This document shows positions 10,544 to 29,987 of a stretch of 64,000 nt of DNA, piece by piece. The notes below the pieces were generated by a model. The model had not been told where the DNA came from. It was given only the letters and a program-made list of their open reading frames with translations, and did no database searches. This DNA comes from Gillisia sp. CAL575 (GTDB lineage: Bacteria; Bacteroidota; Bacteroidia; Flavobacteriales; Flavobacteriaceae), in NCBI RefSeq assembly GCF_000403785.1, contig NZ_APHJ01000040.1:62001-126000 (forward strand). The letters run 5' to 3'. The position numbers and the translations under genes are program-made. The stretch's first letter is position 1, and every line of letters starts with the position of its first letter.

Positions 10544-10738
10544 TTATTGTTGTTGTTCTCTTTTAGTTAACTCTGTAGCAATTCTCGCTATAGATTTTCT
10601 TACAACTCGTAGTTGTATTGGGTTCTCCAATGGCGAAACTGCGTGAGCCATTTTTAAATCTGAATATGCTTTTCTGGACTTACTAAGTTCTTCTTGTAAA
10701 TCTGCAACAGATGATTCTCTTACTTCTGATTGTTTCAT
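10544..10738 (-). CDS. rpmC: 50S ribosomal protein L29
   Basis: This 64-residue two-helix protein lies at the tunnel exit, where it contacts trigger factor and SRP in other bacteria. The signature region is NPIQLRVVRKSIARIATEL. It sits 12 bases after rplP. Confidence 0.97.
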   Translation of the reverse strand: MKQSEVRESSVADLQEELSKSRKAYSDLKMAHAVSPLENPIQLRVVRKSIARIATELTKREQQQ

Positions 10739-10750
10739 AACTTCTCTAAA

Positions 10751-11170
10751 TTAAGCTTGATAATCTCTAGCTACAATAAACTTAGTTTTCACAGGCAATT
10801 TCTGTGCTGCAAGACGCAATGCTTCTTTTGCAACATCATAAGGAACTCCTCCTATTTCAAATAAGATTCTTCCTGGTTTTACAACTGCTGCCCAATATTC
10901 CACAGCACCCTTACCTTTACCCATACGTACTTCAAGAGGTTTCTTTGTAATAGGCTTGTCTGGAAAAATTTTAATCCATAACGAACCTTCTCTTTTCATA
11001 AAACGGGTAGCGGCTATACGAGCTGCTTCTATTTGACGTGCAGTAAGGAAACTTGAGTCCAATGATTTGATCCCGAATGTTCCGTTTGAAAGTCTATGCC
11101 CTCTTTGAGAGTTTCCTTTCATACGGCCCTTTTGCATCTTACGATATTTTGTTCTTTTAGGCTGTAACAT
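10751..11170 (-). CDS. rplP: 50S ribosomal protein L16
   Basis: L16 helps position tRNA in the A and P sites. The 139 residues start [19 protein letters not shown] and carry the signature region [20 protein letters not shown]. It lies 18 bases after rpsC. Confidence 0.98.
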
Positions 11171-11188: not shown

Positions 11189-11914
11189 TTACTTTCTACG
11201 ACGTGGTTTGTTGTTACCTCCTCGTGCTGGTCCGGATTTTCCTCCTGGTTTCTTGGTAGTCATACCAACAAGTGGGGAAAGCTCTCTTTTTCCGTAAACC
11301 TCACCTTTCATGATCCATACTTTAACACCAAGCCTACCATAAGTAGTATGTGCCTCAACTAAAGCATAATCAATATCGGCTCTAAAAGTCGACAAAGGAA
11401 TTCTTCCATCTTTGTAATGTTCTGAACGAGCCATCTCTGCTCCGTTCAAACGACCTGAAATTTGTATTTTAATACCTTCAGCATTCATTCTCATAGCGGC
11501 TGCAATAGCCATTTTGATAGCACGACGGTAAGAAATACGATTCTCAATTTGTCTAGCAACACTAGAACCTACTAAGTGAGCATCTAATTCTGGTCTTTTA
11601 ATTTCAAAGATGTTAATTTGAACTTCTTTGTCAGTAATTTTCTTAAGCTCTTCTTTCAACTTGTCTACCTCTTGTCCACCTTTCCCGATAATGATACCAG
11701 GTCTTGCAGTAGTGATAGTAACGGTTACAAGTTTAAGAGTACGCTCGATAATTACTCTAGATACACTCGCTTTTGATAAACGAGCATGGATATACTTTCT
11801 AATCTTATCGTCTTCGGCTAATTTATCGCCGTAGTCATTTCCTCCGTACCAGTTGGATTCCCATCCTCTAATGATACCAAGGCGATTCCCGATTGGATTT
11901 GTTTTCTGTCCCAT
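11189..11914 (-). CDS. rpsC: 30S ribosomal protein S3
   Basis: S3 lies at the mRNA entry and takes part in unwinding mRNA. The start at 11914 gives the conserved N-terminus [13 protein letters not shown]; an in-frame start 33 bases upstream would add residues not seen in the family and overlap rplV. The 241 residues show a KH domain ([19 protein letters not shown] near residue 75) and the C-terminal domain (about 110-215), then a basic Gly-rich tail. It starts 4 bases after rplV. Confidence 0.98.
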
Positions 11915-11918
11915 ACTC

Positions 11919-12326
11919 TTAGCTTTGTGTATTTTTATTGTCACCAATCACAATTGTAACGTGGTTGGAACGTTTTCTAATTCTGTGTGCGCGACCTTGT
12001 GGTGCAGGACGAAGTCTCTTCAACATACTCCCACCGTCTACGCGTATCTCTTTTACAAATAAATCTGCCTCCTCAATGTTAGCATCTTCATTTTTTGCTT
12101 GCCAGTTAGCAATAGCAGAAAGAAGTAATTTCTCCAATCTACGTGATGCTTCCTTAGAGCTAAATCTCAACACATGAAGCGCTCTTTCTACTTTTTCACC
12201 TCGAACTAAATCTGCAACTAATCGCATTTTTCTTGGCGAAGTAGGGCAGTTATTCAGTTTTGCAAAAGCTACTAGCTTTTTAGCCTCTTTTGTCTGATCT
12301 GCTTTTTCTCTTTTACGAACTCCCAT
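11919..12326 (-). CDS. rplV: 50S ribosomal protein L22
   Basis: L22 lines the exit tunnel through a beta-hairpin loop and is a site of macrolide-resistance changes. The 135 residues include [18 protein letters not shown] and the loop and C-terminus [20 protein letters not shown]. Confidence 0.97.
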
Positions 12327-12334
12327 AGCTTCAG

Positions 12335-12613
12335 TTATCTTTTACCTTTATTTTTCGCACCTACGTGACCTCTAAAAGATCTAGTTGGTGAAAATTCTCC
12401 TAATTTGTGTCCTACCATATTCTCTGTTACATAAACAGGAACAAATTGTTTCCCATTATGTACAGCGATAGTTTGCCCAACGAAATCTGGAGTTATCATA
12501 GAGGCTCTAGACCAAGTCTTGATTACCGTCTTTTTTCCAGCTTCTACATTGGTAGCAACTTTCTTTTCTAACTTATAGTGAACGTAAGGTCCTTTTTTTA
12601 ATGAACGTGCCAT
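12335..12613 (-). CDS. rpsS: 30S ribosomal protein S19
   Basis: S19 lies in the 30S head with S13 and contacts A-site tRNA through its tail. The 92 residues have [11 protein letters not shown] at the start and the signature [18 protein letters not shown] near the end. Gaps are 6 bases to rplB and 8 to rplV. Confidence 0.98.
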
Positions 12614-12619
12614 ATCTTA

Positions 12620-13447
12620 TTATTTCTTTCTACGTTCTACAATATACTTATTACTCGCTTTCGTCTTAGATCGGGTTCTATAACCTTTTGCAGGTATACC
12701 TTTTCTAGAACGTGGGTGACCTCCAGAAGATTTTCCTTCACCACCACCCATTGGGTGATCCACAGGATTCATCACTACTGGTCTTGTTCTTGGTCTTCTA
12801 CCCAACCATCTACTTCTACCTGCTTTACCAGATACAATTAATTGATGATCACTATTCGAGATAGCTCCTATAGTAGCCATACAAGTTACTAACACCCTTC
12901 TAATTTCTCCTGAAGGAAGTTTAATAGTTGCGTACTTACCCTCTTTTGCTACTAATTGAGCAAAAGCACCTGCACTACGAGCCATAACAGCTCCTTGCCC
13001 AGGACGTAATTCTATACAAGAAATAACAGTTCCTAACGGCACTGCAGAAAGTGGCATTGCATTTCCAATATTTGGAGCAGCAGTTTCAGCGTCAGAAACA
13101 ATGTTCTGATCTACCTGAAGACCATTTTGAGCAATTACATATCTTTTCTCACCATCTTGATAATTCAAAAGAGCGATAAAAGCCGTTCTGTTAGGATCAT
13201 ATTCTATAGACGCAACTGTAGCAGGAACTCCATGCTTGTCACGTTTAAAATCGATAATTCTGTAACGTCTTTTGTGACCACCACCTTTATAGCGCATGGT
13301 CATTTTTCCTTGACTGTTTCTACCACCTGACTTTTTAATCGGAGCTATTAAACTCTTCTCCGGCTTATCAGTAGTAATGGCGTCAAAACCATTAACTACT
13401 CTAAAACGCTGACCAGGGGTGATTGGTTTTAATTTTCTAACTGACAT
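12620..13447 (-). CDS. rplB: 50S ribosomal protein L2
   Basis: L2 is needed for subunit association and peptidyl-transferase activity. The 275 residues hold the OB-fold and SH3-like RNA-binding domains. The conserved C-terminal region is [20 protein letters not shown], which includes the histidine implicated in catalytic-centre structure. Length is normal. Confidence 0.99.
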
Positions 13448-13456
13448 TCTTTAATC

Positions 13457-13747
13457 TTAAAGATTACTGTATAAATCAATAGTTTCACCTTCCGCCACCT
13501 GTACTAATGCTTTTTTATAAGCACTTGTTTTACCAGTGATCACTCCCGTTTTTGTAAAACGAGATTTACGATCTGGACGGACATTTATTGTGCGAACTTT
13601 AGTAACTGAAACTCCATAAGCAGACTCTATTGCGCCTTTAATTTCAATCTTGTTCGACTTATTATTAACAACGAACGAATAACGGTTATTCAACTCGCTA
13701 TCTGCTGTCGCTTTTTCTGTAATAATAGGTTTTATTAAGATACTCAT
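13457..13747 (-). CDS. rplW: 50S ribosomal protein L23
   Basis: L23 is the main docking protein for trigger factor and SRP at the tunnel exit. The 96 residues begin MSILIKPIITEKATADSE and include YGVSVTKVRTINVRPDRKSR. It sits 5 bases after rplD. Confidence 0.98.
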   Translation of the reverse strand: MSILIKPIITEKATADSELNNRYSFVVNNKSNKIEIKGAIESAYGVSVTKVRTINVRPDRKSRFTKTGVITGKTSAYKKALVQVAEGETIDLYSNL

Positions 13748-13752
13748 ATCGT

Positions 13753-14382
13753 TTATTTACTTAAATTCAACTCAATTCCTTCTAAAGACCCTTCTACAAA
13801 CACAAGGTTATTTGCGTTTAATATTTTGTAAGTACTTAATTCTGAACTACTTACAACTTCGGTGCCTTTTAAATTGCGTGACGACAAATATACATTTTTA
13901 TTCGAGTCACCCAACACTATAAGAGATTTTTTCTTATCTACACCTAAGCCTTTTAAAACATCTATAAAGTTTTTGGTTTTAGGAGTATCAAATTGAAAAT
14001 CTTCTACTATGATAATTGCTTTATCATTTGCCTTAATAGAAAGAGCAGATTTTCTTGCTAATCTTTTTAAGTTCTTGTTCAATTTAAAACCATAGTTTCT
14101 TGGACGTGGTCCGAACATACGTCCACCACCTCTAAAAATACCAGATTTTATACTACCAGCACGAGCTGTACCAGTACCTTTTTGTTTCTTAATCTTACGT
14201 GTACTTCCTGAAATCTCCGCACGCTCTTTAGATTTGTGCGTTCCTTGACGTTGATTAGCCAAGTATTGTTTTACATCAAGATATACAGCATGATTGTTAG
14301 GCTCTATTCCGAAAACAGAATCTGAAAGGTTTACCTTTCTTCCTGTTTCTTTTCCTTTAATATCTACAACTGCTATTTCCAT
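13753..14382 (-). CDS. rplD: 50S ribosomal protein L4
   Basis: L4 lines the exit tunnel and in E. coli represses the S10 operon. The 209 residues show the extended loop [39 protein letters not shown], and the globular C-domain. Its start codon shares a base with the rplC stop codon, which suggests translational coupling. Confidence 0.98.
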
Positions 14383-14993
14383 TACTTCTGAATGATTACA
14401 TATGAGTTATTGTGACCAGGAACACATCCTTTTACAACAAGTAGATTTTTATCTGCAACTACTTTTAAAACTCTTAAGTTTTCTAATTTAACTGTGTCAC
14501 CACCCATACGGCCAGCCATACGCATTCCCTTAAATACTCTTGCAGGATATGACGCAGCACCAATCGATCCAGGGGCTCTTAAACGGTTATGTTGACCGTG
14601 AGTAGCTTGTCCTACTCCGGCAAAGCCGTGTCTCTTTACTACACCTTGAAAACCTTTACCTTTGCTCGTTCCTGAAATATCCACGAATTCACCTTCAGCA
14701 AAATGTTCTACTGTGATACTATCACCTAATTTGTGATCCCCATCAAAACCTTTAAATTCAACGACTTTACGCATTGCTGCAACACCTGCTTTTTTAGCGT
14801 GCCCAGTGGCAGCCTTGTTAGCGGTCTTTTTGTCATCGAAACCTAATTGAAGAGCTTCATACCCGTCAATCTCTTTGGTTCTGACTTGGGTAATTACGCA
14901 AGGACCAGCTTGTATAACAGTACAAGGAATATTCTTCCCGTTCTCGTCAAAAATGCTAGTCATGCCTATTTTTTTTCCTATTAACCCAGACAT
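14382..14993 (-). CDS. rplC: 50S ribosomal protein L3
   Basis: L3 starts 50S assembly and reaches the peptidyl-transferase centre. The 203 residues include [17 protein letters not shown] and the signature [19 protein letters not shown], followed by [20 protein letters not shown]. The 153-base gap between it and rpsJ is the longest inside the ribosomal block and contains a terminator-like hairpin. Confidence 0.98.
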
Positions 14994-15033
14994 AATTAAT
15001 TATTGATTAAATTAAAATTATTTATTTAAAAAT

Positions 15034-15065
15034 ATTCAGGATTGAAAATACTTCCAATCCTGAAT
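15034..15065 (-). terminator. Hairpin between rpsJ and rplC, possible attenuator
   Basis: A perfect 11-base inverted repeat (ATTCAGGATTG at 15034-15044, CAATCCTGAAT at 15055-15065) with a 10-base loop is followed on the minus strand by ATTTTTAAAT. It looks like a Rho-independent terminator inside what is usually one operon and may make the S10/spc genes partly independent of the str genes. Confidence 0.55.
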
Positions 15066-15080
15066 GTATTTTTCCGTTTT

Positions 15081-15101
15081 TCCCTCGACAACTGCTCGGG
15101 A
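15081..15101. repeat. Short REP-like palindrome in the rplC-rpsJ gap
   Basis: The sequence shares the CGACAACT core and TCGGGA end with the element at 8704-8722. It lies beside the hairpin at 15034-15065 in the same intergenic gap. Function unknown. Confidence 0.35.
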
Positions 15102-15146
15102 CATGTAATTAATTTTGAATTCAAAAAAGCGAATTCCAAATTAAAA

Positions 15147-15452
15147 TTAAACTTTGATCTCTACTTCTACTCCACTTGGCAATTCCAATTTCATCAAAGC
15201 ATCAATAGTTTTAGATGAAGAACTGTATATGTCCAACAATCTTTTGTAAGAGCTTAATTGAAATTGTTCACGCGCTTTTTTATTAACGTGCGGAGAACGT
15301 AATACTGTAAAGATTTTTTTATGTGTTGGCAATGGGATTGGTCCCGTTACTACAGCACCCGTAGTTTTTACGGTTTTCACGATCTTCTCTGCAGACTTGT
15401 CCACCAAGTTATGATCGTAAGATTTAAGTTTTATTCTGATTTTCTGACTCAT
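15147..15452 (-). CDS. rpsJ: 30S ribosomal protein S10
   Basis: S10 is part of the 30S head and, as NusE, joins antitermination complexes. The 101 residues begin [20 protein letters not shown] and contain [20 protein letters not shown] and [13 protein letters not shown]. It lies 10 bases after fusA, so in this genome it is attached to the str genes and separated by a long gap from rplC. Confidence 0.98.
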
Positions 15453-15462
15453 ATCCCTATTA

Positions 15463-17571
15463 TTAATCGTTTGTACCTTTAGATGCTTTTATAACTGCCT
15501 CAGAAATATTTGATGGAGTTTCAGCATAATGAGAAAATTCCATAGTAGATGTTGCTCTACCAGATGATAATGTTCTCAATGTTGTTACATAACCAAACAT
15601 TTCAGAAAGTGGCACTTCAGCTTTAATAACTTTTGCACCAGATCTATCTGACATATCGTTTACTTGACCTCTTCTTCTGTTAAGATCACCTACGATATCT
15701 CCCATGTTTTCTTCCGGAGTTACACATTCAACTTTCATGATTGGCTCAAGAATTACCGCACCCGCTTTTTTAGCAGCTACTTTATAACCCATTCTTGCAG
15801 CTAATTCAAACGAAAGTTGATCGGAATCCACAGGGTGGAAAGATCCATCCTTTAATTCAACCTTAAGAGTATCCATCTTAAATCCTGCTAGAGGACCAGT
15901 TTTCATAGCTTCTCTAAATCCTTTTTCCACAGATGGAATAAATTCTTTAGGAATACGTCCACCTTTTACAGAGTCGATAAATTGTAGACCTGGACCTTTA
16001 AAGTCCTCATCTGCTGGAGACATCTCAAATACGATATCACCAAATTTACCACGACCACCAGATTGTTTCTTATAGATTTCTCTATGGTCTGCATTTCTAG
16101 TAATGGTCTCTTTATACTCAACCTGAGGCTGACCTTCATTAACTTCTACCTTGAATTCTCTTTTTAAACGATCTACAAGAATTTCCAAGTGCAATTCTCC
16201 CATTCCTGAGATAATTGTTTGTCCTGAAACTTCATCTGTTTTCACCTGGAAAGTTGGATCTTCTTCAGCAAGCTTTGCCAAAGCCATACCCATCTTATCC
16301 ACATCAGCCTTTGTTTTAGGCTCCACTGCAATACCAATTACTGGCGCAGGGAAAGACATAGATTCTAATGTAATAGGATTCTTCTCGTCTGTAAGCGTAT
16401 CTCCAGTTTTAATGTCTTTAAAACCAACAGCAGCACCAATATCTCCAGCTTCAATTCTGTCAATAGGCTCTTGCTTATTAGCATGCATTTGGTAAATACG
16501 TGAGATACGTTCTTTTTTACCAGAACGATTGTTCAACACATAAGAACCAGCATCTAAAGCACCTGAATATACTCTAAAGAAAGCCAAACGTCCTACGAAA
16601 GGATCGGTAGCAATTTTAAAAGCTAAGGCAGAGAATGGAGAATCTACGTTAGGTTTACGAGACTCTTCTACATCTGTATCTGGATTTACTCCAATAATAG
16701 CTTCAATATCTACAGGAGATGGTAAATAACGCATAACCGCATCCAACATCATTTGAACTCCTTTATTTTTAAAGGCAGACCCACACATCATAGGTATGAT
16801 AGACATATCTATGGTTGCAGCTCTTAATGCAGCAATAATTTCATCTTCAGTAATAGAATTTTCATCTTCAAAGAATTTCTCCATTAAAGATTCGTCGTAA
16901 TCAGCAACTGCCTCAACCAACAAAGTTCTATACTTATTAACATCTTCCATTAATTCTTCTGGAATAGCGATAGTCTCATAGGTCATCCCATAATCCTCTT
17001 CATTCCAAACGATCGCTGTTTTAGATATTAAATCTACAACACCTTTAAAGTTTTCTTCCTCACCAATTGGAATTTGTAAAGGTACTGGGTTTCCACCTAG
17101 CATTGACTTCACTTGATCGCAAACATTGAAAAAGTCAGATCCCTGACGGTCCATTTTATTCACAAACCCTAAACGAGGAACTTTATATTTATCTGCTTGT
17201 CTCCATACAGTTTCAGATTGAGGCTCAACACCATCAACCGCACTAAATAGAGCAACCATTCCATCCAACACACGTAAAGAACGTTCCACCTCTACAGTGA
17301 AATCTACGTGACCAGGCGTATCAATTATGTTTACTGTGAATTCTTGATCTCTGTAAGTCCACTTACAGTGAGTAGCAGCAGAAGTAATAGTAATACCTCT
17401 TTCTTGCTCCTGCTCCATCCAGTCCATAGTAGCTGCACCGTCATGAACTTCTCCAATCTTGTGACTTACACCTGTATAAAACAAGACACGCTCTGTTGTC
17501 GTGGTTTTACCAGCATCAATATGCGCAGCAATACCAATATTTCTCGTGAATTTTAAATCTCTTTGTGCCAT
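15463..17571 (-). CDS. fusA: Translation elongation factor G
   Basis: EF-G is the GTPase that drives translocation and, with RRF, ribosome recycling. The 702 residues carry all GTP-binding motifs: AHIDAGKTT (16-24), DTPGH (84-88) and NKMD (138-141), followed by domains [17 protein letters not shown] in the switch I region has Cys-Lys-Trp where Cys-Phe-Trp is common. It starts 4 bases after rpsG and no tuf gene follows it. Confidence 0.98.
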
Positions 17572-18959: not shown

Positions 18960-21900
18960 ATGAAAGCAAAATTTAGTAGTATTTTAACGCTATTACTAGC
19001 GTTCGTTGTGCAAATAACGTTTGCACAACAACAGTCCGTAACGGGTAACGTTACCGACGAAGATGGATTACCTCTACCCGGGGTAAACATATTAGTAAAG
19101 GGAACCAGCACTGGTACCCAATCAGATTTTGATGGAAACTATGCTATTTCTGCATCTCAAGGAGATGTATTAGTATTTTCTTTCATAGGTCTTGTGAAAA
19201 CTGAAAAAACAGTTGGAACATCTAACACTGTAAGTGTTGTAATGAAATCTGATGCATCGCAACTTGATGAAGTTGTAGTAACTGCATTAGGTATTAAGAG
19301 AGAGAAGAAATCTCTAGGTTATGCTACTCAGGAAGTAGACGGATCTGCAGTTTCTGATGTACCAACCTCTAACTTCATGAATTCACTTTCAGGAAAAGTA
19401 GCAGGTTTAAACATTAAATCCTCTGGAACAATTGGAGGATCCTCTAACGTTGTGATAAGAGGAAGTGCTTCTATTACAGGAAATAACCAAGCGTTATTTG
19501 TTGTTGATGGAACTCCAATTAGTAATGCCAACACGAATGGTTCGAACCAACAAGCTGGTAGAGGTGGATATGACTACGGGAATGCCGCAGCAGATATCAA
19601 CCCTAACAACATTGCATCTATTAACGTTTTGAAAGGTGCTGCTGCAACTGCTCTATATGGTGCAAGAGCTGCAAATGGTGTTGTTATTATTGAAACAAAA
19701 AGAGGGAATAAAGGTAAAGGTATTGGAGTTTCTGTAAGTTCATCTTTGATGATCTCTAATATTGACAGTGAAACATTGCCAGTTTATCAAAATGAATATG
19801 GTGCTGGTTATGGTGCTTACTACGAGTCTGAAGACGGTTATTTCAATTTATTTGATGTAGATGGTGATGGTAACTTAGACGAGACAACTCCTTTTACAGA
19901 AGATGCTTCTTTTGGGGCTAAATTCGATCCTAACAGAGATATCTATCAATGGAATTCAATTTACCCTTCATTAACCGATACTTATTTACAAGCAACTCCT
20001 TGGGTAGCAGCTAAAAATACTCCAAATGACATTTGGGAAACTGGATATACTGCAATAAACTCTGTTGCCTTAGATGGTGGATCAGATACTGGATCTTTCA
20101 GATTATCTGCTAGTAATTTAACACAACAAGGGAATCTACCTAATAGTGAAATTAAAAGAAACACTATTACTTTTAGTGCAACTCAAGATTTAACTGAAAA
20201 GTTTACCGCAGGAACAAATGTAACTTTTACTAAAACAGATGGTAAAGGTAGATATGGTACAGGATATTCTTCTGGAAACCCAATGCAACAATTTAGACAA
20301 TGGTTCCAAACCAACGTTGATATTTACGAGCAAAGAGATGCATATTTCGCTACAGGAGAAAACATCACTTGGAACCCAAATGGTCCGGATAATTTATCAC
20401 CTATTTATTCTGATAATCCTTACTGGACTAGATATGAAAATTACGAAACTGATACAAGATCTCGTTATTTCGGAAATTTAAATCTCAACTATGAAATCAA
20501 TGATATTTTTAGTGTAGTTGGTAGATTCTCTTTTGACACTTACGATGAATTACAAGAAGAGCGTATAAACGTTGGAAGTGCAGATGTAGCAAGTTATTCT
20601 AGATTCAACAACAGAGTAGCAGAATACAACTACGATTTAATTTTAAACTTCAATAAAGACATCACCGAAGATTTGAATCTTGATGGAAATATTGGAGGGA
20701 ACTTAAGAAGAAATCAACGTAACTTTATCCAAGCAGCAACAAATGGTGGTTTAAATGCACCAGGTTTTTATGCTTTAAGTAACAGTGCTGGACCACTATT
20801 AGCTCCAACAGAGGTAGAGTATACTTCAATGGTTGATGGTGTTTACGCTCGTGCCGGATTAGGTTTTCAAAACACTTATTACTTAGAAGGAACTATTAGA
20901 AGAGATAGATCATCTACTTTACCTATAGACAACAATACATTTTACTACCCATCTATATCTACAAGTATCATATTATCTAATTTATTTGATGCTAGTTGGT
21001 TAAATTTTGCAAAGTTTAGAGCTAACTACGCAGAGGTAGGTAATGACACAAGTCCTTATAATGTATTTAACACTTATTTTGTAAATCCAGGTTTTGCTGG
21101 TTCTGGTAGTGCTAGTAACGGAAGTAGTCTGAAGAACTTAGATTTAAAAGCTGAAACTTCAAAATCTTATGAAGTAGGTTTAGAGGCTAACTTCTTAGAC
21201 AAAAGAATTGGTTTAGATTTATCTTATTACAGAACTAGAACTTACGATCAAATTACACCAGTACCAGTTTCAAATTCAACTGGATTCAATACTAAACTTT
21301 TAAACGCAGGAACTGTTGAGAATAAAGGTTTAGAAGTATTGTTAAACCTTAATCCAATAAGATCTGAAGACTTCAATTGGAATATGACCATTAACTGGGC
21401 TAAGAATGAAAGTGAAGTTATTGAGTTGACAGATGGTATTGACAACTTAGAATTAGCTTCTTTACAAGGTGGTATCTCTATAAATGCAGCTCCAGGGCAA
21501 CCTTACGGTGCAATTAGAGGAACAGACTATATTTATGATGACAATGGTAATAAAGTAGTTGGATCTACTGGTTACTATTTAAGAACTGGAACTAGTAATG
21601 AAATTATTGGAAATATTCAACCAGACTGGACAGGTGGTGTGTCAAACACTTTCCAATACAAGAATCTTAGTTTGAATTTCTTAATAGATGTTCAACAAGG
21701 GGGAGACATTTTCTCTTTAGATACTTGGTACGGTTTCGCAACTGGTATGTATGACAGAAGTGTTGGTAATAATGAGTTAGGTAATCCAATAAGAAATACT
21801 ATTGCTAACGGTGGTGGTGTTATACTTCCTGGGGTAACTGCAGATGGACAACCAAACACTGTAAGAGCAAGAACTGATTACTATGCTAACCCATATGGAT

Positions 21901-22178
21901 ATGCTAGAGACGCTAACAAAGGTCACGTTTATGACGCATCTTTTGTTAAGTTAAGAGAAGCAGGACTTACTTATAATTTCGGAGAAAAAGTTCTTGACGC
22001 TATTCCATTCACAAATGCATCTATCTCTTTAACTGGAAGAAATCTTTGGATTATCCACAAAAATATTCCTTACTCCGATCCTGAAGCAGGACTTAGTTCA
22101 GGAAATGTTCAAGGATATCAATCTGGAGCTTATCCAACAGCAAGAGAAATTGGAGCTAGTGTGAAATTTAACTTTTAA
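18960..22178 (+). CDS. SusC/RagA-family TonB-dependent outer-membrane transporter (copy 1)
   Basis: This beta-barrel imports a ligand handed over by its SusD partner, powered by TonB. The 1072 residues have a signal peptide (about 1-22, cleaved before QQSV), a carboxypeptidase-regulatory-like domain (26-105, VTGNVTDEDGLPLPGVNILV), the plug (about 105-250, ending ANGVVIIETKRG) and the barrel, closing in a terminal Phe. Residues 297-306, DVDGDGNLDE, look like a calcium-binding loop. susD follows after 11 bases. No glycoside hydrolase, sulfatase or regulator lies nearby, so the ligand cannot be inferred. Confidence 0.93.
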   Translation: MKAKFSSILTLLLAFVVQITFAQQQSVTGNVTDEDGLPLPGVNILVKGTSTGTQSDFDGNYAISASQGDVLVFSFIGLVKTEKTVGTSNTVSVVMKSDASQLDEVVVTALGIKREKKSLGYATQEVDGSAVSDVPTSNFMNSLSGKVAGLNIKSSGTIGGSSNVVIRGSASITGNNQALFVVDGTPISNANTNGSNQQAGRGGYDYGNAAADINPNNIASINVLKGAAATALYGARAANGVVIIETKRGNKGKGIGVSVSSSLMISNIDSETLPVYQNEYGAGYGAYYESEDGYFNLFDVDGDGNLDETTPFTEDASFGAKFDPNRDIYQWNSIYPSLTDTYLQATPWVAAKNTPNDIWETGYTAINSVALDGGSDTGSFRLSASNLTQQGNLPNSEIKRNTITFSATQDLTEKFTAGTNVTFTKTDGKGRYGTGYSSGNPMQQFRQWFQTNVDIYEQRDAYFATGENITWNPNGPDNLSPIYSDNPYWTRYENYETDTRSRYFGNLNLNYEINDIFSVVGRFSFDTYDELQEERINVGSADVASYSRFNNRVAEYNYDLILNFNKDITEDLNLDGNIGGNLRRNQRNFIQAATNGGLNAPGFYALSNSAGPLLAPTEVEYTSMVDGVYARAGLGFQNTYYLEGTIRRDRSSTLPIDNNTFYYPSISTSIILSNLFDASWLNFAKFRANYAEVGNDTSPYNVFNTYFVNPGFAGSGSASNGSSLKNLDLKAETSKSYEVGLEANFLDKRIGLDLSYYRTRTYDQITPVPVSNSTGFNTKLLNAGTVENKGLEVLLNLNPIRSEDFNWNMTINWAKNESEVIELTDGIDNLELASLQGGISINAAPGQPYGAIRGTDYIYDDNGNKVVGSTGYYLRTGTSNEIIGNIQPDWTGGVSNTFQYKNLSLNFLIDVQQGGDIFSLDTWYGFATGMYDRSVGNNELGNPIRNTIANGGGVILPGVTADGQPNTVRARTDYYANPYGYARDANKGHVYDASFVKLREAGLTYNFGEKVLDAIPFTNASISLTGRNLWIIHKNIPYSDPEAGLSSGNVQGYQSGAYPTAREIGASVKFNF
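18987..19028 (+). repeat. Two tandem inverted repeats in the 5' coding part of susC copy 1
   Basis: The first is ACGCTA-TTAC-TAGCGT (18987-19002). The second is TTGTGCAAA-TAACG-TTTGCACAA (19006-19028), a perfect 9-base stem with a 5-base loop. They lie 28-69 bases into the gene, over the signal-peptide codons. Equivalent hairpins occur at 24340-24381 in the second susC. Confidence 0.6.
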
Positions 22179-22189
22179 TTAAAGAAAAA

Positions 22190-23656
22190 ATGAAAAAATA
22201 CATTTTAACAATTATTGCTCTCGCATCACTATGGTCCTGCCAGACAGACGAGCAATATGAAGATTATAACAGGGACCCTAAAAACCCGACAGAAGTAAAA
22301 GCAGATTTTTTATTTACTGCAGCTACTGTTAGTTTAGGTGACCAAATGGCAAGTGCCAATGTTAACAACAACATCTTTAGATTTGTTTCTCAATATTGGA
22401 CCTCAACTACTTATTTAGATGAGCCTAACTATGATTTAAATAATCGTGGAATTTCAGACAGTCAATGGAATGAACTTTACAGAGATGTTCTTTTTGATAT
22501 TAAAGATGCAAAAAATTTAGTTCAGGCAGATGTAGAATTATCTGAAGGTGAAAAAACTGCTAGATTAGCTCAATTAGAAGTAGTTGAAGTTTACGCATGG
22601 CAAGTTTTAGTGGATACCTTTGGAGATGTTCCTTATTCTGAAGCTTTAAATGCAACAGATTTTCCTCAACCTAAATTTGATGACGCTGCAACTATATATG
22701 CTGACTTAATTTCTAGATTAACTGCAGTAAATTCTGATTTCCAAGCTGGAAGTGGATTTACATCTGCTGATGTTGTTTACGGCGGAGATATGGACAGTTG
22801 GGCAAAATTCTCTAACTCTCTTCTTTTAAGATTAGGGATGAGATTATCTGATGTTAATCCAAGTCTTGCACAATCTACAGCTGAAACTGCTGTGACTAAC
22901 GGAGTATTCATGTCTAACGGAGATAATGCTACAATTGCTTACCAAAGTACAAACCCGAACACGAACCCATTGTGGAGTGATCTTGTGGAAAGCGGAAGAT
23001 CTGATTATGTTCCTGCTAATACTTTAGTAGATATCATGAATGAACTTGAAGATCCAAGAAGATCTGTGTACTTTGATGATAATGTAGCTCCTTATATTGG
23101 TGGAGTTTATGGTGGAAGTAATTCTTACCCTTCTTACTCTCATGTTGGACAAGCATTTTTAGATCCAACTTTACCTGGTATTCTTTTAGATTATTCAGAA
23201 GTTGAATTTCATTTAGCTGAAGCTGCTCAAAGAACTTACGGTGTAACTGGAAGTGCTGAAGATCATTATAATGCTGCAATCACTGCGTCAATTAACTATT
23301 GGGGTGGATCTGATGCTGATGCTACAGCTTATTTAGCACAAGCTGATGTGGCTTATGACGAAGCTAACTGGGAAGAGCAATTAGGAACGCAGTTCTGGAT
23401 AGCTATGTATGACAATTCTATCATGGGATGGAACGTTTGGAGAAAATTTGATACTCCAGTGTTAAATTTACCTGAGGATACTGGTAACTTTGTACCATTA
23501 AGATATACATATCCTATTGGTGAGCAAAACTTGAACTTAACTAACTATGAAGCAGCATCTGCAGCTATAGGTGGTGATGATCAACAAACTCCTCTCTTTT
23601 GGGATATAACTTTTCCAGATCAATCAACGTACCCTGGAGGACCAGCAGAAGAATAA
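22190..23656 (+). CDS. SusD/RagB-family surface lipoprotein (copy 1)
   Basis: SusD-like proteins form the lid over a SusC barrel and capture its ligand at the cell surface. The 488 residues begin with a lipoprotein signal whose lipobox ends at Cys17 (SLWSC). The body is alpha-helical with TPR-like parts, including YAWQVLVDTFGDVPYSEALN near residue 135, typical of the SusD/RagB group. It resembles the SusD-like_2 branch common in marine Flavobacteriia. It is co-transcribed with the preceding susC and followed by a strong terminator. Confidence 0.9.
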   Translation: MKKYILTIIALASLWSCQTDEQYEDYNRDPKNPTEVKADFLFTAATVSLGDQMASANVNNNIFRFVSQYWTSTTYLDEPNYDLNNRGISDSQWNELYRDVLFDIKDAKNLVQADVELSEGEKTARLAQLEVVEVYAWQVLVDTFGDVPYSEALNATDFPQPKFDDAATIYADLISRLTAVNSDFQAGSGFTSADVVYGGDMDSWAKFSNSLLLRLGMRLSDVNPSLAQSTAETAVTNGVFMSNGDNATIAYQSTNPNTNPLWSDLVESGRSDYVPANTLVDIMNELEDPRRSVYFDDNVAPYIGGVYGGSNSYPSYSHVGQAFLDPTLPGILLDYSEVEFHLAEAAQRTYGVTGSAEDHYNAAITASINYWGGSDADATAYLAQADVAYDEANWEEQLGTQFWIAMYDNSIMGWNVWRKFDTPVLNLPEDTGNFVPLRYTYPIGEQNLNLTNYEAASAAIGGDDQQTPLFWDITFPDQSTYPGGPAEE

Positions 23657-23677
23657 TTAAATCACTTTATATTATTT

Positions 23678-23706
23678 AAAAGCTGCCCAATTGGGCAGCT
23701 TTTTTT
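23678..23706 (+). terminator. Terminator after the first susCD pair
   Basis: A 13-base perfect palindrome (AAAAGCTGCCCAA joined to TTGGGCAGCTTTT) ends in a run of T residues 22 bases past the susD stop. It separates the first pair from the rlmB remnant and the second pair. Confidence 0.9.
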
Positions 23707-23734
23707 ATTTACAAGATTTAAGAAAAATATATCG

Positions 23735-23820
23735 GCACCTATGGAAGACACTACTACAATTTATGAGATAGGAATTGTAAATGAAGCTATACAAAACGAA
23801 CAAAATATTTAATAAGTTCT
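23735..23820 (+). pseudogene. Decayed copy of the 5' end of rlmB
   Basis: From 23735 the sequence matches the start of the intact rlmB at 29244 onward: 28 consecutive identical bases spanning the six before the ATG and codons 1-7, then a weaker match to about 23820. Read from ATG 23741 it gives MEDTTTIYEIGIVNEAIQNE and stops after 23 codons (23810-23812), against MEDTTTIFGIRTVIEAIQSE in RlmB. The promoter -7 box of rlmB (TATCTTTG) is degraded here to TATATCGG. It marks an old end of rlmB next to the first susCD pair. The rest of 23821-24250 is AT-rich with no gene seen. Confidence 0.85.
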
Positions 23821-24253
23821 TAGCTAAAAAAAACCTTGATAACATAAATATTTTTTATGATATGTGCCGAACTGAATTAAAGATAGATCTACATATTAAA
23901 TAAAACTGCTTTATTTAAGGACTCTAAATTAATTCTTACTAATTAAGTTTTATGGGCAGTTACATAAATTAATAATAATTGAGATTTGCTATATACTCCA
24001 CTATTCTTAAAAAATAATTAATTATTGCATGAATTGTAAAAATTTAAATAATTTAATTACCACATTTATATACCTAGCAACACTTCCAATTAAATGACAA
24101 GCCTTCCTCTCTAATAATTTTAAGCTAATTATATAAATCCGAATTCTAATGCGGATAGCCTGAGTTATAAACAAGTTTAAGAGGTATTTACAAGGGTAAT
24201 TGTTAGAATCAATCTTAAATCATTAAAAGATCCTAAAATTATATTTAGAATTA

Positions 24254-24289
24254 TTTGTTTTATAACTAATCTTTTATCAAATTTAATGC
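24254..24289 (+). promoter_or_regulatory. Probable promoter region of the second susC
   Basis: A TTTG at 24254-24257 is followed by the stretch TTATCAAATTTAATG, which aligns with TTATCACTTTTGGCG before the first susC. The -7 match is poor, so the assignment rests on the alignment of the two leaders. Confidence 0.3.
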
Positions 24290-24302
24290 GGCTAATTCAA
24301 AT
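24290..24302 (+). promoter_or_regulatory. Conserved leader box before susC (copy 2)
   Basis: GGCTAATTCAAAT, identical to 18937-18949, ends 10 bases before the ATG of the second susC. Flanking sequence is much less similar than the box. Confidence 0.5.
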
Positions 24303-24312
24303 AAACTAAAAT

Positions 24313-27300
24313 ATGAAATCAAATTTTACGCGATTTATGACGCTTTTACTAGCGTTGATTGTGCAAATGACATTTGCACAAGAACAAACGGTGACCGGTA
24401 TGGTAACCGATGAAAATGGACTACCTCTACCTGGGGTTAATGTCCTTGTAAAGGCAGGAACAAGAGGTACTCAAACCGATTTTGATGGAAATTACTCTAT
24501 TCAAGCATTTCAGGAAGATGTATTGGTCTTTTCGTTTATTGGTTTGCTAAAGGCAGAATATCCCGTAGGAAATCGACGAACTATCAATGTAACTTTAAGT
24601 CCTGATGGCGCTACTTTAGATGAAGTAGTTGTAACGGCACTTGGGGTAAAAAGCACTCCTCGCTCAGTTAGTTATGCAGTTGAAAATGTTAGTGCAGAGG
24701 ATATTGAAAATACAGGGGAAACAAACCTTGTGAACTCTTTGGCTTCTAAAGCTGCAGGTGTTAGTGTAGTAAGCGCTTCAGGATCTGTAGGTGCGTCCTC
24801 CAACATAAGAATTAGAGGTAATACTTCTATAGGAAGATCCAATAGTCCTTTATTTATAGTTGACGGAGTTCCAATTGATAACTCATCAACAGGTAACGAT
24901 ACTGGTGGAGCAGATAACTCCAACAGGGCAATCGATATAAATCAAAATGACATTGCTTCTATCGATGTATTAAAAGGTACTGCTGCACAAACTTTATATG
25001 GTTTAAGAGCTGCAAATGGAGTTATAATTATTACAACAAAAAAAGGTCAAACCGGCGCTCCAAGCGTTTCAGTTTCTTCTTCATTACAATTTAGTGAAGT
25101 AAACCAATTACCAGATTTACAAAGGGAGTTCGCTCAAGGTAGACCAGTTGGGGGAGTACCTACTTACCGTGGTCCAGAAACCCGCGAAGGTTTTAGTTGG
25201 GGCCCACGTATCTCTTCGTTAGAATATGACGGAGATGATAGTTACCCATATAGTAATTTTGGTAGGTTGGTACCACAAGGTGAGGGAAATGGTATGGCTG
25301 CCAATTCATACGATCACTATGACTTCTTTGTGACTGGTGTTCTAGATGACCAAAACGTTTCAGTACGTGGAGGTTCAGAAAAAATAAAGTATTTTCTTTC
25401 CGGCGGGAAACTTCATCAAACAGGAATTGCCCCAACAGAAGAATTTGATAGACGCTCATTTAGAGCAGATTTAAGCGCTCAACTTAGAGAAGATTTTGAG
25501 ATTTCTGCAAGTGGAACTTATGTTACTTCAGGTGGGCGTAGAGTCCAAAGAGGATCTAATGTTTCGGGTATTATGTTAGGGCTTTTAAGATCTACACCTA
25601 CTTTTGATAATGGGAATGGTCTAGCAGGTCGTCTTGCAGCTGCCACTCCAAGCACTTATCAATTGGAAGATGGAAGCCAGAGAAGTTACCGTGCCGGAGT
25701 TTATGACAACCCATATTGGACAGTAGCAAAAAACCCTTCTACAGATGATGTTAAGCGTTTCATTGGAAGATTATCGTTCGATTATAAACCATTAGATTGG
25801 GCAACAATAAGAGGAACTCTGGCTTATGATCAATTTTCTGATGTTAGAAAAGCAGGAGTTGATATTAATTCAGCTGGAAATCCTCAAGGTCAAGTAACAG
25901 ATCTTACTCTTTTTAGTGAAGACATCAATTCACAACTTTTATTCTTAGTGGATAAAAATATTTCAGACAATATAACCTTTAATAGTGTAATTGGATACGA
26001 CGGTTTCACAACACAAAGTTTAACAAGAGAGTCTATTGGTAATGGTCTAACAATTCCAGGTTTTTACCATGTATCTAACACTGCAAGTCAAGCGGTTGCT
26101 GAGGGTGTATCAAGGAAAAAATTAGATGCAGTTTTAGCTGATGCCAAATTTGGTTTTAATGACACTTTCTTTATAAATGGTGCAATTAGAAATGACTGGT
26201 CTTCCACTTTACCTGATGACAATAATGATTTTTTATCTTATAGTGCTGGGGGTGCAATTGTGTTTTCAGAATTTGTGGATAATTTAGGGTTCTTTAGTTA
26301 TGGTAAACTGCGTGGTTCATATGGTAAAACTGGTAATGACGCTCCTATATTTGCTACGACAACCTATTATAATGCTGCACTTTCCGGAGGGGACGGTTTT
26401 ATTGATGGTAACCAATTTCCTATATTTTCAACCGTTGCATTCGAGAGAGATTCACAATTAGGGAACCCAGATATTCGTCCTGAAGTTACCAAAGAATTTG
26501 AAGTTGGAGCCGAACTTAGGTTTTGGGATTCGAGATTTAGAGTAGATGTTACATATTACGAAAAAGAGACTACAGATCAGATTATATCTGTAGACCAACC
26601 GGCAGTAACTGGATTCACATCGCGTGTAATAAATGCTGGGGTCATTTCTAACAAAGGTTGGGAAGTTTTAGGATTTCTAAATCCTATTAAGACAGAAAAT
26701 TTCAATTGGAACATAGATGTTAACTGGACTACTTACGAAAATGTTGTTGAAGAATTAACAGAAAATGTTGAATCTATAACCTTAGCAGGATTTACCTCAA
26801 CTTCTTCCAGAGTTATTGCAGGAGAACCTTATGGTGTAATTTTTGGCTCTAAATTCGCCAGAAATGATGAAGGACAGGTTCTTATTGGAGATAATGGATT
26901 CCCTGTTTTGGATACTGAAGATGGAGTTGTAGGAGATCCTACCCCAGACTGGACGATGGGTATAAGAAACACATTCTCTTATAAAGCTTTTTCCGTATCT
27001 GCACTTTTAGATATTAGACAAGGTGGTGATGTATGGTGTGGTACATGTGGTATTATAGATTACTTTGGTACCTCTCAAAAAACTGCGGATCAAAGAGAAA
27101 TTACAGATTTTGTTTTTGAAGGCGTTAACGAAAACTCAGGAGCACAGAATACTACCGAAGTTGCTTTAGCAAATCCTGAAACTGGTATAAATTCTTTTTA
27201 CTGGACACGTTATGCTTTTGGTGGAGTTTCTGAAGATAACATTTTTGATTCATCTTGGGTAAGACTAAGAGAAGCTTCTATTTCTTATAGTTTACCGGGT

Positions 27301-27492
27301 TCTTTATTGGATGCCACCTTTTTAACATCAGGTTCAATTACCGCTTCAGGTAGGAACTTATTTTTAATTACCGACTATCCAGGTATAGATCCTGAAACAA
27401 ATCTTACAGGTTCAAGTAATGGTATTGGTTTGGACTATTTTAACCAGCCTAATACTAAGAGTTATGCTTTAACAGTAAAACTTAATTTTTAA
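24313..27492 (+). CDS. SusC/RagA-family TonB-dependent outer-membrane transporter (copy 2)
   Basis: Same family and layout as the first susC: signal peptide (1-22, LLLALIVQMTFAQ), carboxypeptidase-regulatory-like domain (26-105), plug ending ANGVIIITTKKG near residue 240, then the barrel, 1059 residues in all. The N-terminal third is clearly paralogous to copy 1, while the barrel differs widely, so the ligand is probably different. A CGTC motif in GGDVWCGTCGIIDYFGTS (about residue 905) could form a disulfide. susD follows after 11 bases. No degradative enzymes lie nearby. Confidence 0.93.
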   Translation: MKSNFTRFMTLLLALIVQMTFAQEQTVTGMVTDENGLPLPGVNVLVKAGTRGTQTDFDGNYSIQAFQEDVLVFSFIGLLKAEYPVGNRRTINVTLSPDGATLDEVVVTALGVKSTPRSVSYAVENVSAEDIENTGETNLVNSLASKAAGVSVVSASGSVGASSNIRIRGNTSIGRSNSPLFIVDGVPIDNSSTGNDTGGADNSNRAIDINQNDIASIDVLKGTAAQTLYGLRAANGVIIITTKKGQTGAPSVSVSSSLQFSEVNQLPDLQREFAQGRPVGGVPTYRGPETREGFSWGPRISSLEYDGDDSYPYSNFGRLVPQGEGNGMAANSYDHYDFFVTGVLDDQNVSVRGGSEKIKYFLSGGKLHQTGIAPTEEFDRRSFRADLSAQLREDFEISASGTYVTSGGRRVQRGSNVSGIMLGLLRSTPTFDNGNGLAGRLAAATPSTYQLEDGSQRSYRAGVYDNPYWTVAKNPSTDDVKRFIGRLSFDYKPLDWATIRGTLAYDQFSDVRKAGVDINSAGNPQGQVTDLTLFSEDINSQLLFLVDKNISDNITFNSVIGYDGFTTQSLTRESIGNGLTIPGFYHVSNTASQAVAEGVSRKKLDAVLADAKFGFNDTFFINGAIRNDWSSTLPDDNNDFLSYSAGGAIVFSEFVDNLGFFSYGKLRGSYGKTGNDAPIFATTTYYNAALSGGDGFIDGNQFPIFSTVAFERDSQLGNPDIRPEVTKEFEVGAELRFWDSRFRVDVTYYEKETTDQIISVDQPAVTGFTSRVINAGVISNKGWEVLGFLNPIKTENFNWNIDVNWTTYENVVEELTENVESITLAGFTSTSSRVIAGEPYGVIFGSKFARNDEGQVLIGDNGFPVLDTEDGVVGDPTPDWTMGIRNTFSYKAFSVSALLDIRQGGDVWCGTCGIIDYFGTSQKTADQREITDFVFEGVNENSGAQNTTEVALANPETGINSFYWTRYAFGGVSEDNIFDSSWVRLREASISYSLPGSLLDATFLTSGSITASGRNLFLITDYPGIDPETNLTGSSNGIGLDYFNQPNTKSYALTVKLNF
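24340..24381 (+). repeat. Two tandem inverted repeats in the 5' coding part of susC copy 2
   Basis: The first is ACGCT-TTTACT-AGCGT (24340-24355). The second is TTGTGCAAA-TGACA-TTTGCACAA (24359-24381), with the same 9-base stem as in copy 1 and a changed loop. They occupy the same codons and nearly the same distance from the ATG as in the first susC. Confidence 0.6.
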
Positions 27493-27503
27493 AATAAACT
27501 AAA

Positions 27504-28880
27504 ATGAAAAGCAAAAACATATTTAAGATTTTACTAACAGTATTTTTCAGTTTTGCTGTTATGATCTCCTGTGACTACGATGATGTCAACCAGGATCCCA
27601 CAAGGCCAGGTGGAGATAGTGTACCACTTGTAGCAATAGTGCCTGCAATGCAAACTCAAACTCACCGGAATATAGATGCCGTACTTGGCAGGTATGCAGG
27701 AATTATCATGCAGCAATGGCAAGGTTTTGACGCTCAGCAATTAAATTATACCTCTTATGTTATCGGGGAAAATGATACAGACAATCCATGGGATTTCGGA
27801 TTGTATACTGGATCTATGAGAGATGCAAACGATATAATTGAAAGAGCAACCAATACAGAAGCGTTTAACACCCGGGGCGTAGCTAAAATATATATGGCAA
27901 TCAACTTGGGGCTTGCTACTAATGTTTGGGGGGACGTTCCTTATTCGGAAGCTTTTTTAGGTAAAGAGAACTTATCTCCTAAATATGATGATCAGGAAGA
28001 ACTTTATGGTGTACTTCAAACACTTTTATCTGAAGCCATAGACGATCTTAATGCCGAAGATCCTGCAGGCATCCAAGGTGATTTAATAGGTGGTTCTAAC
28101 GACCAATGGATCGCTGCTGCACATTCTCTAAAAGCGAGATTTTATATTCAACAAACCAGTGTAAATTCAAATGCTGCACAGTTAGCCTTAGACGAACTAG
28201 CCATGGCGGTATCCAGCAATGACGGACAATTGAACTTTCAATTTGAAAATACCCAAAATGGTGGGCATCCCTTAGCTTTGTTTGGTTTCCAAAGACCAAG
28301 CACTATGATTATTGATGACTATTTTGCAAATTTAATGATGGATGATCCACGTATGGACAAATACATGTATGAGGATGAAGGTAACTTTTTCTACTTTGAT
28401 GGAGATAACTCTAATCTTTTCTGGGCACAATTAGATAGTCCCAATCCGGTGATCAGTTATTCAGAAACTAAGTTTATTGAAGCAGAAGCTTTAGCAAGAA
28501 CCGGTGGGGATGGAACAGAGGCTTTAGAAGAAGCGATAAGAGCTAACATGTCCTATTTAGGCATTGCTTCAACTGAAATTGAGGACTATCTCAGCAGCTT
28601 ACCTGCTACTAATATTCAAACTATCATTATTGAAAAATATAAAGCCATGTATGGACAAAATCCAATGCAAGTATGGAATGATTATAGAAGAACAGGATTT
28701 CCAGATATAGTTCCAAACGCGAACGGAGCAAATGCATTCGATCCTTCAGGTATTGTACCTAGAAGATTGCTTTATCCAATCTCTGAACGTCTTTCAAATC
28801 CGATTGAATACGAAGCAGCTATTAACGCTCAAGGAGGTCACTTATTAGATGATGATATTTGGGTTTTTCCTTTGAATTAA
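27504..28880 (+). CDS. SusD/RagB-family surface lipoprotein (copy 2)
   Basis: Surface ligand-binding partner of the second SusC. The 458 residues have a lipoprotein signal ending at Cys23 (AVMISC) followed by DYDDVNQDPTRPGG, an N-terminal pattern typical of SusD-like_2 proteins, and NVWGDVPYSEAFLGKENLSP in the body. It differs strongly from the first SusD outside these motifs. A strong terminator follows. Confidence 0.9.
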   Translation: MKSKNIFKILLTVFFSFAVMISCDYDDVNQDPTRPGGDSVPLVAIVPAMQTQTHRNIDAVLGRYAGIIMQQWQGFDAQQLNYTSYVIGENDTDNPWDFGLYTGSMRDANDIIERATNTEAFNTRGVAKIYMAINLGLATNVWGDVPYSEAFLGKENLSPKYDDQEELYGVLQTLLSEAIDDLNAEDPAGIQGDLIGGSNDQWIAAAHSLKARFYIQQTSVNSNAAQLALDELAMAVSSNDGQLNFQFENTQNGGHPLALFGFQRPSTMIIDDYFANLMMDDPRMDKYMYEDEGNFFYFDGDNSNLFWAQLDSPNPVISYSETKFIEAEALARTGGDGTEALEEAIRANMSYLGIASTEIEDYLSSLPATNIQTIIIEKYKAMYGQNPMQVWNDYRRTGFPDIVPNANGANAFDPSGIVPRRLLYPISERLSNPIEYEAAINAQGGHLLDDDIWVFPLN

Positions 28881-28942: not shown

Positions 28943-29236
28943 AGAAACATTTATATCTAAAAATTTACTTCGTGTTTAAGAAAAGGATTTATATTTTTTT
29001 TATTAAGAATAGATAACATTACTGATATAATCCTTTAAGAGAAGGGACCAAAAGTTACAGAAGTTAATCAAACATCCTCAGCGCAGCAAACTAGAAATAT
29101 TGTCTAATAATAGATAAGTTAAATCGTATTCACTGAAACCCTTTTATTTCTTTATTGCAATTGCTCTACTTCCTGATGATTTTTTTTTGATTCTTTATTT
29201 GTTTTACTCAAGTGCTTTTTTTGTCTTAGCAAAGTT

Positions 29237-29244
29237 TATCTTTG
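29237..29244 (+). promoter_or_regulatory. -7 promoter element of rlmB, probably leaderless
   Basis: TATCTTTG matches the Bacteroidota -7 box fully and ends only 5 bases before the ATG at 29250. The transcript would start at or next to the ATG. A clear -33 TTTG at the right distance is not seen. Confidence 0.55.
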
Positions 29245-29249
29245 CACCT

Positions 29250-29987
29250 ATGGAAGACACTACTACAATTTTTGGAATAAGAACTGTTATTGAAGCTATA
29301 CAAAGCGAAAAGAATATAGATAAGATTTATATTCAGAAAGGACTTAATAATCCATTATTTCAGGAGTTATTATCAGTTATTGGTAGAAAGGGATTTAATA
29401 TCTCTTACGTTCCTGTAGAAAAACTTCAAAAACTTACTCAAGGAAATCACCAAGGCGTTGTAGCCAAAATATCTCCTATAGAATTTCCAGATATGGAGGA
29501 AGTTGTACAACGAGTATTAGAAAACACTACTGCCACTCCCCTATTTTTACTTTTAGATCAGATCACAGATGCCAGAAACTTTGGTGCGATCATTAGAACT
29601 GCGGAATGTTGTGGAGTTCACGCAATCATTATTCAAGACAAAGGTGGAGCACCAGTAAATGCAGATACTGTAAAAACTTCAGCTGGAGCGGTATTTAATA
29701 TACCTATATGTAAAGTGAATCATATTAAAGATGCTATTTACTACCTGCAAGGCTCTGGCGTGAATGTAGTAGCCGCAACAGAGAAAAGCGATCAATCCAT
29801 TTACGAAACAGAACTAAATAAACCCACTGCCTTAGTAATGGGTAGTGAAGGGAGAGGAATTAACCCCTCTGTTCTCAAGATCGTAAACGATAAAGCAAAA
29901 TTACCTATGTTTGGAAGCATTGGTTCTTTAAATGTATCTGTAGCTTGTGGTGCTTTTTTATATGAAATCGTTAGACAACGTTCATAA
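29250..29987 (+). CDS. rlmB: 23S rRNA 2'-O-ribose methyltransferase, SpoU/TrmH family (RlmB-like)
   Basis: SpoU-family enzymes of this type methylate a 23S rRNA ribose (G2251 in E. coli) with SAM. The 245 residues have the small N-terminal substrate-binding domain (1-75) and a knotted SPOUT domain with motif 1 DQITDARNFGAIIRTAE, motif 2 LVMGSEGRGI and motif 3 IGSLNVSVACGAFLYEI. Start 29250 is chosen over an upstream in-frame start because MEDTTTIFG is the family-like N-terminus and the -7 box overlaps the longer form. A decayed copy of its 5' end lies at 23735. Confidence 0.92.
   Translation: MEDTTTIFGIRTVIEAIQSEKNIDKIYIQKGLNNPLFQELLSVIGRKGFNISYVPVEKLQKLTQGNHQGVVAKISPIEFPDMEEVVQRVLENTTATPLFLLLDQITDARNFGAIIRTAECCGVHAIIIQDKGGAPVNADTVKTSAGAVFNIPICKVNHIKDAIYYLQGSGVNVVAATEKSDQSIYETELNKPTALVMGSEGRGINPSVLKIVNDKAKLPMFGSIGSLNVSVACGAFLYEIVRQRS

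Follow-up and report, generated by a model that had tools for sequence, protein, structure and literature searches.

The 64,000-nucleotide stretch of Gillisia DNA analysed here, referred to below as the window, carries two susCD pairs followed by rlmB, all on the forward strand. The first pair consists of susC1 (18960–22178), encoding a SusC/RagA-type TonB-dependent transporter (TIGR04056, 631 bits, cut-off 368), and susD1 (22190–23656), encoding a SusD-like_2 lipoprotein (PF12771, 389 bits). The second is formed by susC2 (24313–27492; TIGR04056, 637 bits) and susD2 (27504–28880; PF12771, 164 bits). With both SusC proteins above the TIGR04056 cut-off and both SusD proteins above the cut-offs of PF12771 and PF12741, the genes qualify as SusC/RagA pairs; no NCBIfam model matched SusD1 or SusD2. 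Intact rlmB (29250–29987) follows a promoter region at 29223–29249, and its product, a 23S rRNA methyltransferase, belongs to the RlmB family by TIGR00186 (203 bits, cut-off 160.15), while scoring below the cut-off of a second RlmB model, NF008386 (163.5 vs 366). SusC1 and SusC2 are 35% identical and SusD1 and SusD2 25%, which rules out tandem duplication of one pair; the first-pass annotation had disfavoured it from the strong divergence of the SusC proteins. Between 23657 and 29186, susC2 and susD2 are the only forward-strand open reading frames (ORFs) of at least 100 amino acids and the other strand has none of that size; since no recombinase gene was found among them, the interval does not qualify as a mobile-element insertion by transposase or integrase.

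Between the two pairs lies a broken copy of the start of rlmB. Local alignment of 23701–24300 against 29151–29420 matched approximately 23721–23809 to 29228–29318 with a score of 99 and a single 2-base gap in the promoter, compared with a top score of 41 among 2000 first-order Markov shuffles, ruling out a chance match as the source of the copy. As the first-pass annotation had described, 28 identical bases (GCACCT and the first 22 coding bases) give way to a weaker match and a stop: the fossil coding part (codons 1–23, 23741–23809) differs from intact rlmB at 11 of 69 bases, all within nucleotides 23–69 and without an indel, and runs into a TAA (23810–23812). Its account of the promoter box likewise held, the box being retained 5' of intact rlmB (TATCTTTG, 29237–29244) and lost in the copy (TATATCGG, 23728–23735). 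The motif TAnnTTTG, which we take to be the Bacteroidota -7 box, occurs within 25 bases 5' of rlmB in 15 of 19 intact genes examined and is absent before the fossil.

The fossil is larger than first annotated. Its 84 upstream bases (23657–23740), comprising the susD1 terminator hairpin and a dead promoter remnant, are part of the feature, because they align without a break, together with the fossil codons, to living susD–rlmB junctions of one-pair relatives: 23657–23808 to that of Gillisia mitskevichiae (G014; 85.7% identity), 23664–23808 to that of genome G005 (81.3%) and 23657–23795, reaching nucleotide 55 of rlmB, to that of Gillisia lutea (G009; 80.9%). Past codon 23, anchored extensions of 30, 45, 60 and 90 bases detected no rlmB homology (p = 0.43, 0.09, 0.26 and 0.26), leaving a longer remnant unsupported. 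The further junction sequence that the first-pass annotation had suggested looking for was present upstream, by comparison with relatives, and undetected beyond codon 23. The next 426 bases (23810–24235, 24% GC) are an orphan stretch, unmatched in the locus regions fetched from relatives; against 99 other genomes of the family they gave only weak short matches, the best (E 3.4e-5) just before susC2. Sequence common to relatives resumes in the susC2 upstream region (24236–24312), which is 84.6% identical to Gillisia hiemivivida (G006) and also has matches in G008 and Gillisia marina (G004). These comparisons confirm 23657–23809 as a decayed susD-terminator, promoter and rlmB-start junction that ends after rlmB codon 23.

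It is very improbable that the 23-codon ORF or its RNA was retained for a function, as a leader peptide or regulator. The unchanged first 28 bases would fit such a role (p = 0.0095 that 11 random differences would all spare the first 22 of 69 bases), yet the promoter box is gone, seven of the nine changed codons are non-synonymous and the feature was not found in 15 other Gillisia. In addition, of the 13 Rfam matches with E no higher than 1, none reached its gathering score, and the best ones lie on the susD1 terminator hairpin. A functional leader or RNA is accordingly unsupported.

A second rlmB start was found in one of 16 Gillisia genomes searched, that of the window itself (E 6.3e-19), further matches having E 0.003 or weaker; in two of the 15 genomes without it (G011 and G012, both incomplete assemblies), the start of the main copy is missing as well. 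The conserved short ORF that the first-pass annotation had named as evidence against its reading is therefore not seen in the relatives. The stretch before rlmB could be read in 12 of these 15 genomes, G011 having no good rlmB match, the G012 contig beginning inside rlmB and G015 offering 2 kb only. Four of the 12 (G. mitskevichiae, G. lutea, G005 and G003) carry a lone SusC1D1-type pair directly 5' of rlmB, the arrangement that had been predicted for relatives. The proposal that rlmB once stood behind the first pair is borne out, be it for this lineage or for the donor of the pair, by the 81–86% junction alignments with three one-pair Gillisia. In four others (G. hiemivivida, G. marina, G008 and G007), a SusC2D2-type pair adjoins rlmB and is itself preceded by other pairs, and the remaining four (Gillisia limnaea (G001), G002, G010 and G013) have other or broken units.

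Some of these loci contain further material. In G002 (L034), the C-terminal part of a SusD1-like protein (residues 377–470, 60%), encoded at 12493–12768 of the reversed stretch, is followed by another SusCD pair and rlmB; this locus is rearranged, with rpsL, rpsG and fusA absent from the fetched stretch on its left. Between the pairs of G. hiemivivida (L032) lies a 374-aa ORF 3' of the first SusD gene, SusE-like by eye, and between those of G007 (L040) a 534-aa minus-strand ORF 5' of SusC2, by eye a transposase. Relatives of SusC2 also occur outside the rpsL–rlmB locus or on another contig, as a second copy in G007 (G007:C46:1572-4745, 78%) and in two frames in G010 (G010:C1:4042157-4045302, 67–71%).

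Phylogenetic comparison addressed which pair is resident. The tree of ten right-flank genes was ((((own,G006),G014),G004),G008),G009, where own, here and in the site counts, denotes the window's genome; own and G. hiemivivida group at 100/100 with branches of 0.12 and 0.083, and forcing own together with G. mitskevichiae costs 74.65 lnL and is rejected. The SusC2D2 tree (five genomes) again joins own and G. hiemivivida (100/100; branches 0.12 and 0.082) with G. marina next, in the same order as the right flank. The SusC1D1 tree (seven genomes) places own with G. mitskevichiae (100/99) and then G. lutea (100/100), own with G. hiemivivida being rejected (p-AU 1.5e-5). The gyrB tree alone leaves the species order unsettled. 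Because the branching order and branch lengths of SusC2D2 match the right flank while SusC1D1 conflicts with it, SusC2D2 looks resident. The first-pass annotation had taken the second pair for an already diverged insert from another strain; with a SusC2D2-type pair next to rlmB in four of 12 relatives and a flank-like history, an alien second pair is disfavoured. What stands of the earlier reading is the fossil susCD–rlmB junction, and what falls is the alien second pair, save for the possibility, weighed below, that SusC2D2 came back from a close relative into an ancestor with one pair.

Affinities along the chromosome change on reaching the first pair. The window's genome is closer to G. hiemivivida than to G. 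mitskevichiae in 21 of 24 genes left of the window (three are opposite, one strongly), in 15 of 23 ribosomal genes (six closer to G. mitskevichiae, two ties) and, from rlmB rightwards, in 10 of 11 genes (one tie). From rpsJ to susD1, it is closer to G. mitskevichiae in six of six genes (strongly so in fusA, 151:76, susC1, 490:165, and susD1, 290:82 sites), rpsG and rpsL being near signal-free at 9:8 and 3:1 sites. Such a switch is the pattern expected of a graft ending at the fossil. The own–G. mitskevichiae synonymous difference is 0.345 for SusD1, under all 19 background genes, and 0.40 for SusC1, under 17 of 19, with averages taken over genes present in all four genomes and the gene at -23593..-22436 left out. 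In the rpsJ–susD1 tract, G. hiemivivida is the outlier, about equally far from own and from G. mitskevichiae, and in fusA, where it groups with G008 (100/99), as far as from G. lutea; gauged against G. lutea, own and G. mitskevichiae are not unusually close there. Part of their affinity may thus stem from replacement in G. hiemivivida, and the case for import of the whole tract from a G. mitskevichiae-like donor as a proven event is weakened. Left of the window, the gene at -23593..-22436 (G000:C39:38407-39564) deviates from the background in the direction that susC1D1 does, with 300 sites shared with that genome vs 86 with G. hiemivivida.

The intact rlmB is itself a mosaic, its first 57–77 bases forming a one-pair-type patch. 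Over nucleotides 1–77, informative sites resemble G. mitskevichiae rather than G. hiemivivida by 8:0, compared with 27:58 in the remainder (Fisher p = 2.3e-4), with a change point at nucleotides 57–78 (permutation p = 0.002). The sequence just 5' of the start is of the G. hiemivivida/G. marina type. The patch extends from about the point at which the promoters cease to match to about the end of the fossil, as would be expected had the fossil converted this stretch. The rlmB of G. mitskevichiae also switches type, at nucleotides 51–72, consistent with alleles having been cleanly exchanged by a crossover within the conserved rlmB start; this switch is the main support for a late arrival of the second pair, discussed below. 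Fossil and intact rlmB diverge by 0.18 per site (0.09–0.33). Between own and G. hiemivivida, dS is 0.57 for gyrB, 0.66 for rlmB, 0.79 for SusC2 and 0.92 for SusD2, or roughly 0.3–0.45 a lineage. Assuming a neutral fossil, the copies probably began to diverge on the window's own branch, after the split from G. hiemivivida, which the upper limit of the interval (0.33 per site) just touches.

A parallel scar, independent of the one in the window, was found in Gillisia marina. It lies one gene further along and has the same geometry, in that a pair is preceded by a leftover of its downstream neighbour's near end. In locus L051, 257 bp of the end of a rhomboid gene (10736–10992) follow rlmB and share 93% identity with the full-length copy 5.3 kb further along (16028–16768), compared with 77% for the next genome, G015; a SusC2D2-like pair lies between the two copies (11347–15936; 53–59% and 48%), and the rhomboid homology stops sharply at 257 bp. 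On this contig, two frames are needed to read each of four genes (rarA, the rhomboid gene and two SusC genes), making sequencing errors likely, and both rhomboid copies are reached by L051 only, not by G004. We then compared 74 regions (1.46 Mb) with themselves, namely 60 controls, the locus in 12 relatives, the window and L051, the G. marina locus being counted twice (G004 and L051). The repeats sought were direct, at least 50 bases long, at least 72%, at E up to 1e-6 and 1.5–15 kb apart, SusC-to-SusC and SusD-to-SusD repeats being dropped. Repeats spanning a SusC gene occurred in two regions, the window and L051; three other listed repeats span none. None of the 60 control susC regions had such a repeat (six Gillisia, 63 SusC-like ORFs; the set omits some SusC genes, several of G. 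lutea), and among 43 rlmB loci of named genomes L051 alone did. Protein and DNA self-searches of the other named loci gave five DNA matches of 23–36 bases (E 2e-4 to 9e-4; L073, L077, L079, L081 and L082), which we take as chance rather than scars.

Taken together, the fossil is a recombination scar at which two versions of this chromosome stretch were spliced together. We give about an even chance to the reading that rpsL–[susCD]–rlmB is an exchangeable locus, two alleles of which were fused through a homologous join on one side and an illegitimate join on the other; this is favoured as the most economical way of obtaining a fused locus with a useless tail. The locus would exist in at least two alleles, a one-pair form (rpsL–susC1D1–rlmB) and a longer form ending with the pair susC2D2 immediately 5' of rlmB. 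Incoming DNA would have brought susC1D1 with its trailing terminator, promoter and first 69 rlmB bases. Its left end may have joined by homology somewhere between the ribosomal genes and susC1: the left side offers conserved ribosomal genes, and affinity changes along the tract, G. hiemivivida being the outlier there. The right end would have joined illegitimately just 5' of the resident susC2, and the 426 orphan bases that begin where rlmB homology stops, at codon 23, must then contain and conceal this join. The graft would have displaced an earlier first pair, with the donor rlmB start staying behind as a useless tail that then decayed and, in the same event or later, may have converted the resident rlmB start. 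We infer homology-facilitated illegitimate recombination as the joining mechanism, and likewise the order of arrival and the conversion step. We lean towards the first pair and its trailing rlmB end as the newcomer; a graft anchored on the left requires no additional duplication step. Against this reading, it needs conversion to explain the patch, for which the rlmB mosaic of G. mitskevichiae serves a late arrival of the second pair directly.

Such a late arrival, the course closest to the first-pass annotation, is possible, if doubtful: from a one-pair ancestor like G. mitskevichiae, susC2D2 and the rlmB promoter would have re-entered from a close two-pair relative. In detail, and with the same degree of doubt, the right end would have crossed over at the rlmB start and the left end joined behind it, doubling the first 69 rlmB bases. 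The patch then needs no conversion, matching the like mosaic start of the one-pair rlmB in G. mitskevichiae, and a close donor would give SusC2D2 its flank-like branch lengths; that match in length would, however, be owed to a special donor. The same pair must moreover be lost and then regained, and the left join must fall behind the right crossover, which amounts to a duplication. The G. marina parallel fits this course at least as well as it fits the fusion of alleles, since rlmB–rhomboid adjacency is the rule in other Gillisia, making the pair there the derived element, and the fossil rhomboid end is nearest to that genome's own gene. A further alternative, which we consider unlikely, is that the fused arrangement predates the split from G. 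mitskevichiae, which lost susC2D2 via recombination between the rlmB starts, while in G. hiemivivida replacement of the first pair removed the fossil. The position of G. mitskevichiae inside the two-pair clade of the right-flank tree, the end of its one-pair-type rlmB start within the fossil length and the replaced look of the fusA–susD1 tract in G. hiemivivida all agree with an old fusion. The fossil is nevertheless too little diverged for that age, both from intact rlmB and from the rlmB of G. mitskevichiae (13 of 69 bases), when own and G. mitskevichiae differ by 0.54–0.63 at synonymous sites in the flanks, and repeated conversion would be needed to keep it fresh.

Among the 43 named-genome loci, the order rpsL, SusC, rlmB was seen in 17, and in 35 the fetched stretch includes a SusC- or SusD-like gene 5' of rlmB; many of the remaining loci end at the 10 kb limit or a contig edge, and some have no SusC/SusD-like gene. 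Directly 3' of rlmB, and before rhomboid or rarA where these were seen, a SusCD pair occurs in L064, L065, L066 and L074 (Christiangramia) and in L063 (Winogradskyella), indicating that both sides of rlmB accept such pairs. We tentatively suggest, at somewhat less than even confidence, that the rpsL–rlmB–rhomboid stretch of Gillisia, and perhaps of Flavobacteriaceae, is a standing susCD exchange site where the near end of the gene downstream is repeatedly left behind when a pair is added. If true, the two scars, with none in 60 controls and SusC/SusD genes upstream of rlmB in most loci, would be a natural record of tandem susCD arrays growing without a mobile element.

Comparable events have been described in other systems. 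For the type VI secretion system (T6SS) effector-immunity arrays of Vibrio cholerae, homology-facilitated illegitimate recombination, much rarer than ordinary recombination, has been proposed, and orphan Rhs 3' ends are mentioned (PMC5361080). As in those arrays, the event proposed here has a homologous anchor and an illegitimate end, pieces of the older allele lie beside the new module, and clean homologous replacement is considered the commoner outcome (PMC5361080). There, whole immunity genes or effector 3' ends persist and may be useful, in contrast to a 69-base tail of a housekeeping neighbour, of no likely use, between susCD modules (PMC5361080). Laboratory transfer has also yielded homology-facilitated illegitimate recombination, in which integrating DNA joins by homology on one side and illegitimately on the other (PMC3240628); there, events on introduced DNA were followed, whereas here the event is read from a fossil and the illegitimate join is not visible (PMC3240628). 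The susCD-type ragAB locus of Porphyromonas gingivalis undergoes allelic exchange, and, as here, a TonB-transporter/lipoprotein pair varies among strains, which is ascribed to horizontal transfer and allelic exchange (PMC5907639, PMC5266723). The neighbour-gene scar and the fused two-pair allele described here are not part of the ragAB account, as far as its consulted portion goes (PMC5907639). For the rpsL–susCD–rlmB locus of Gillisia itself, we found no paper in the open-access literature, judged by titles and abstract openings.

Nutrient-uptake susCD pairs vary greatly in Bacteroidota, and as an instance of surface-transporter reshuffling in such bacteria the scar is clear, though fairly ordinary. 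The arrival of a second susCD pair beside a first is rarely visible. The scar at the join shows the parts and makes the order of events testable, and it indicates a locus where the addition of susCD pairs can be followed in populations.
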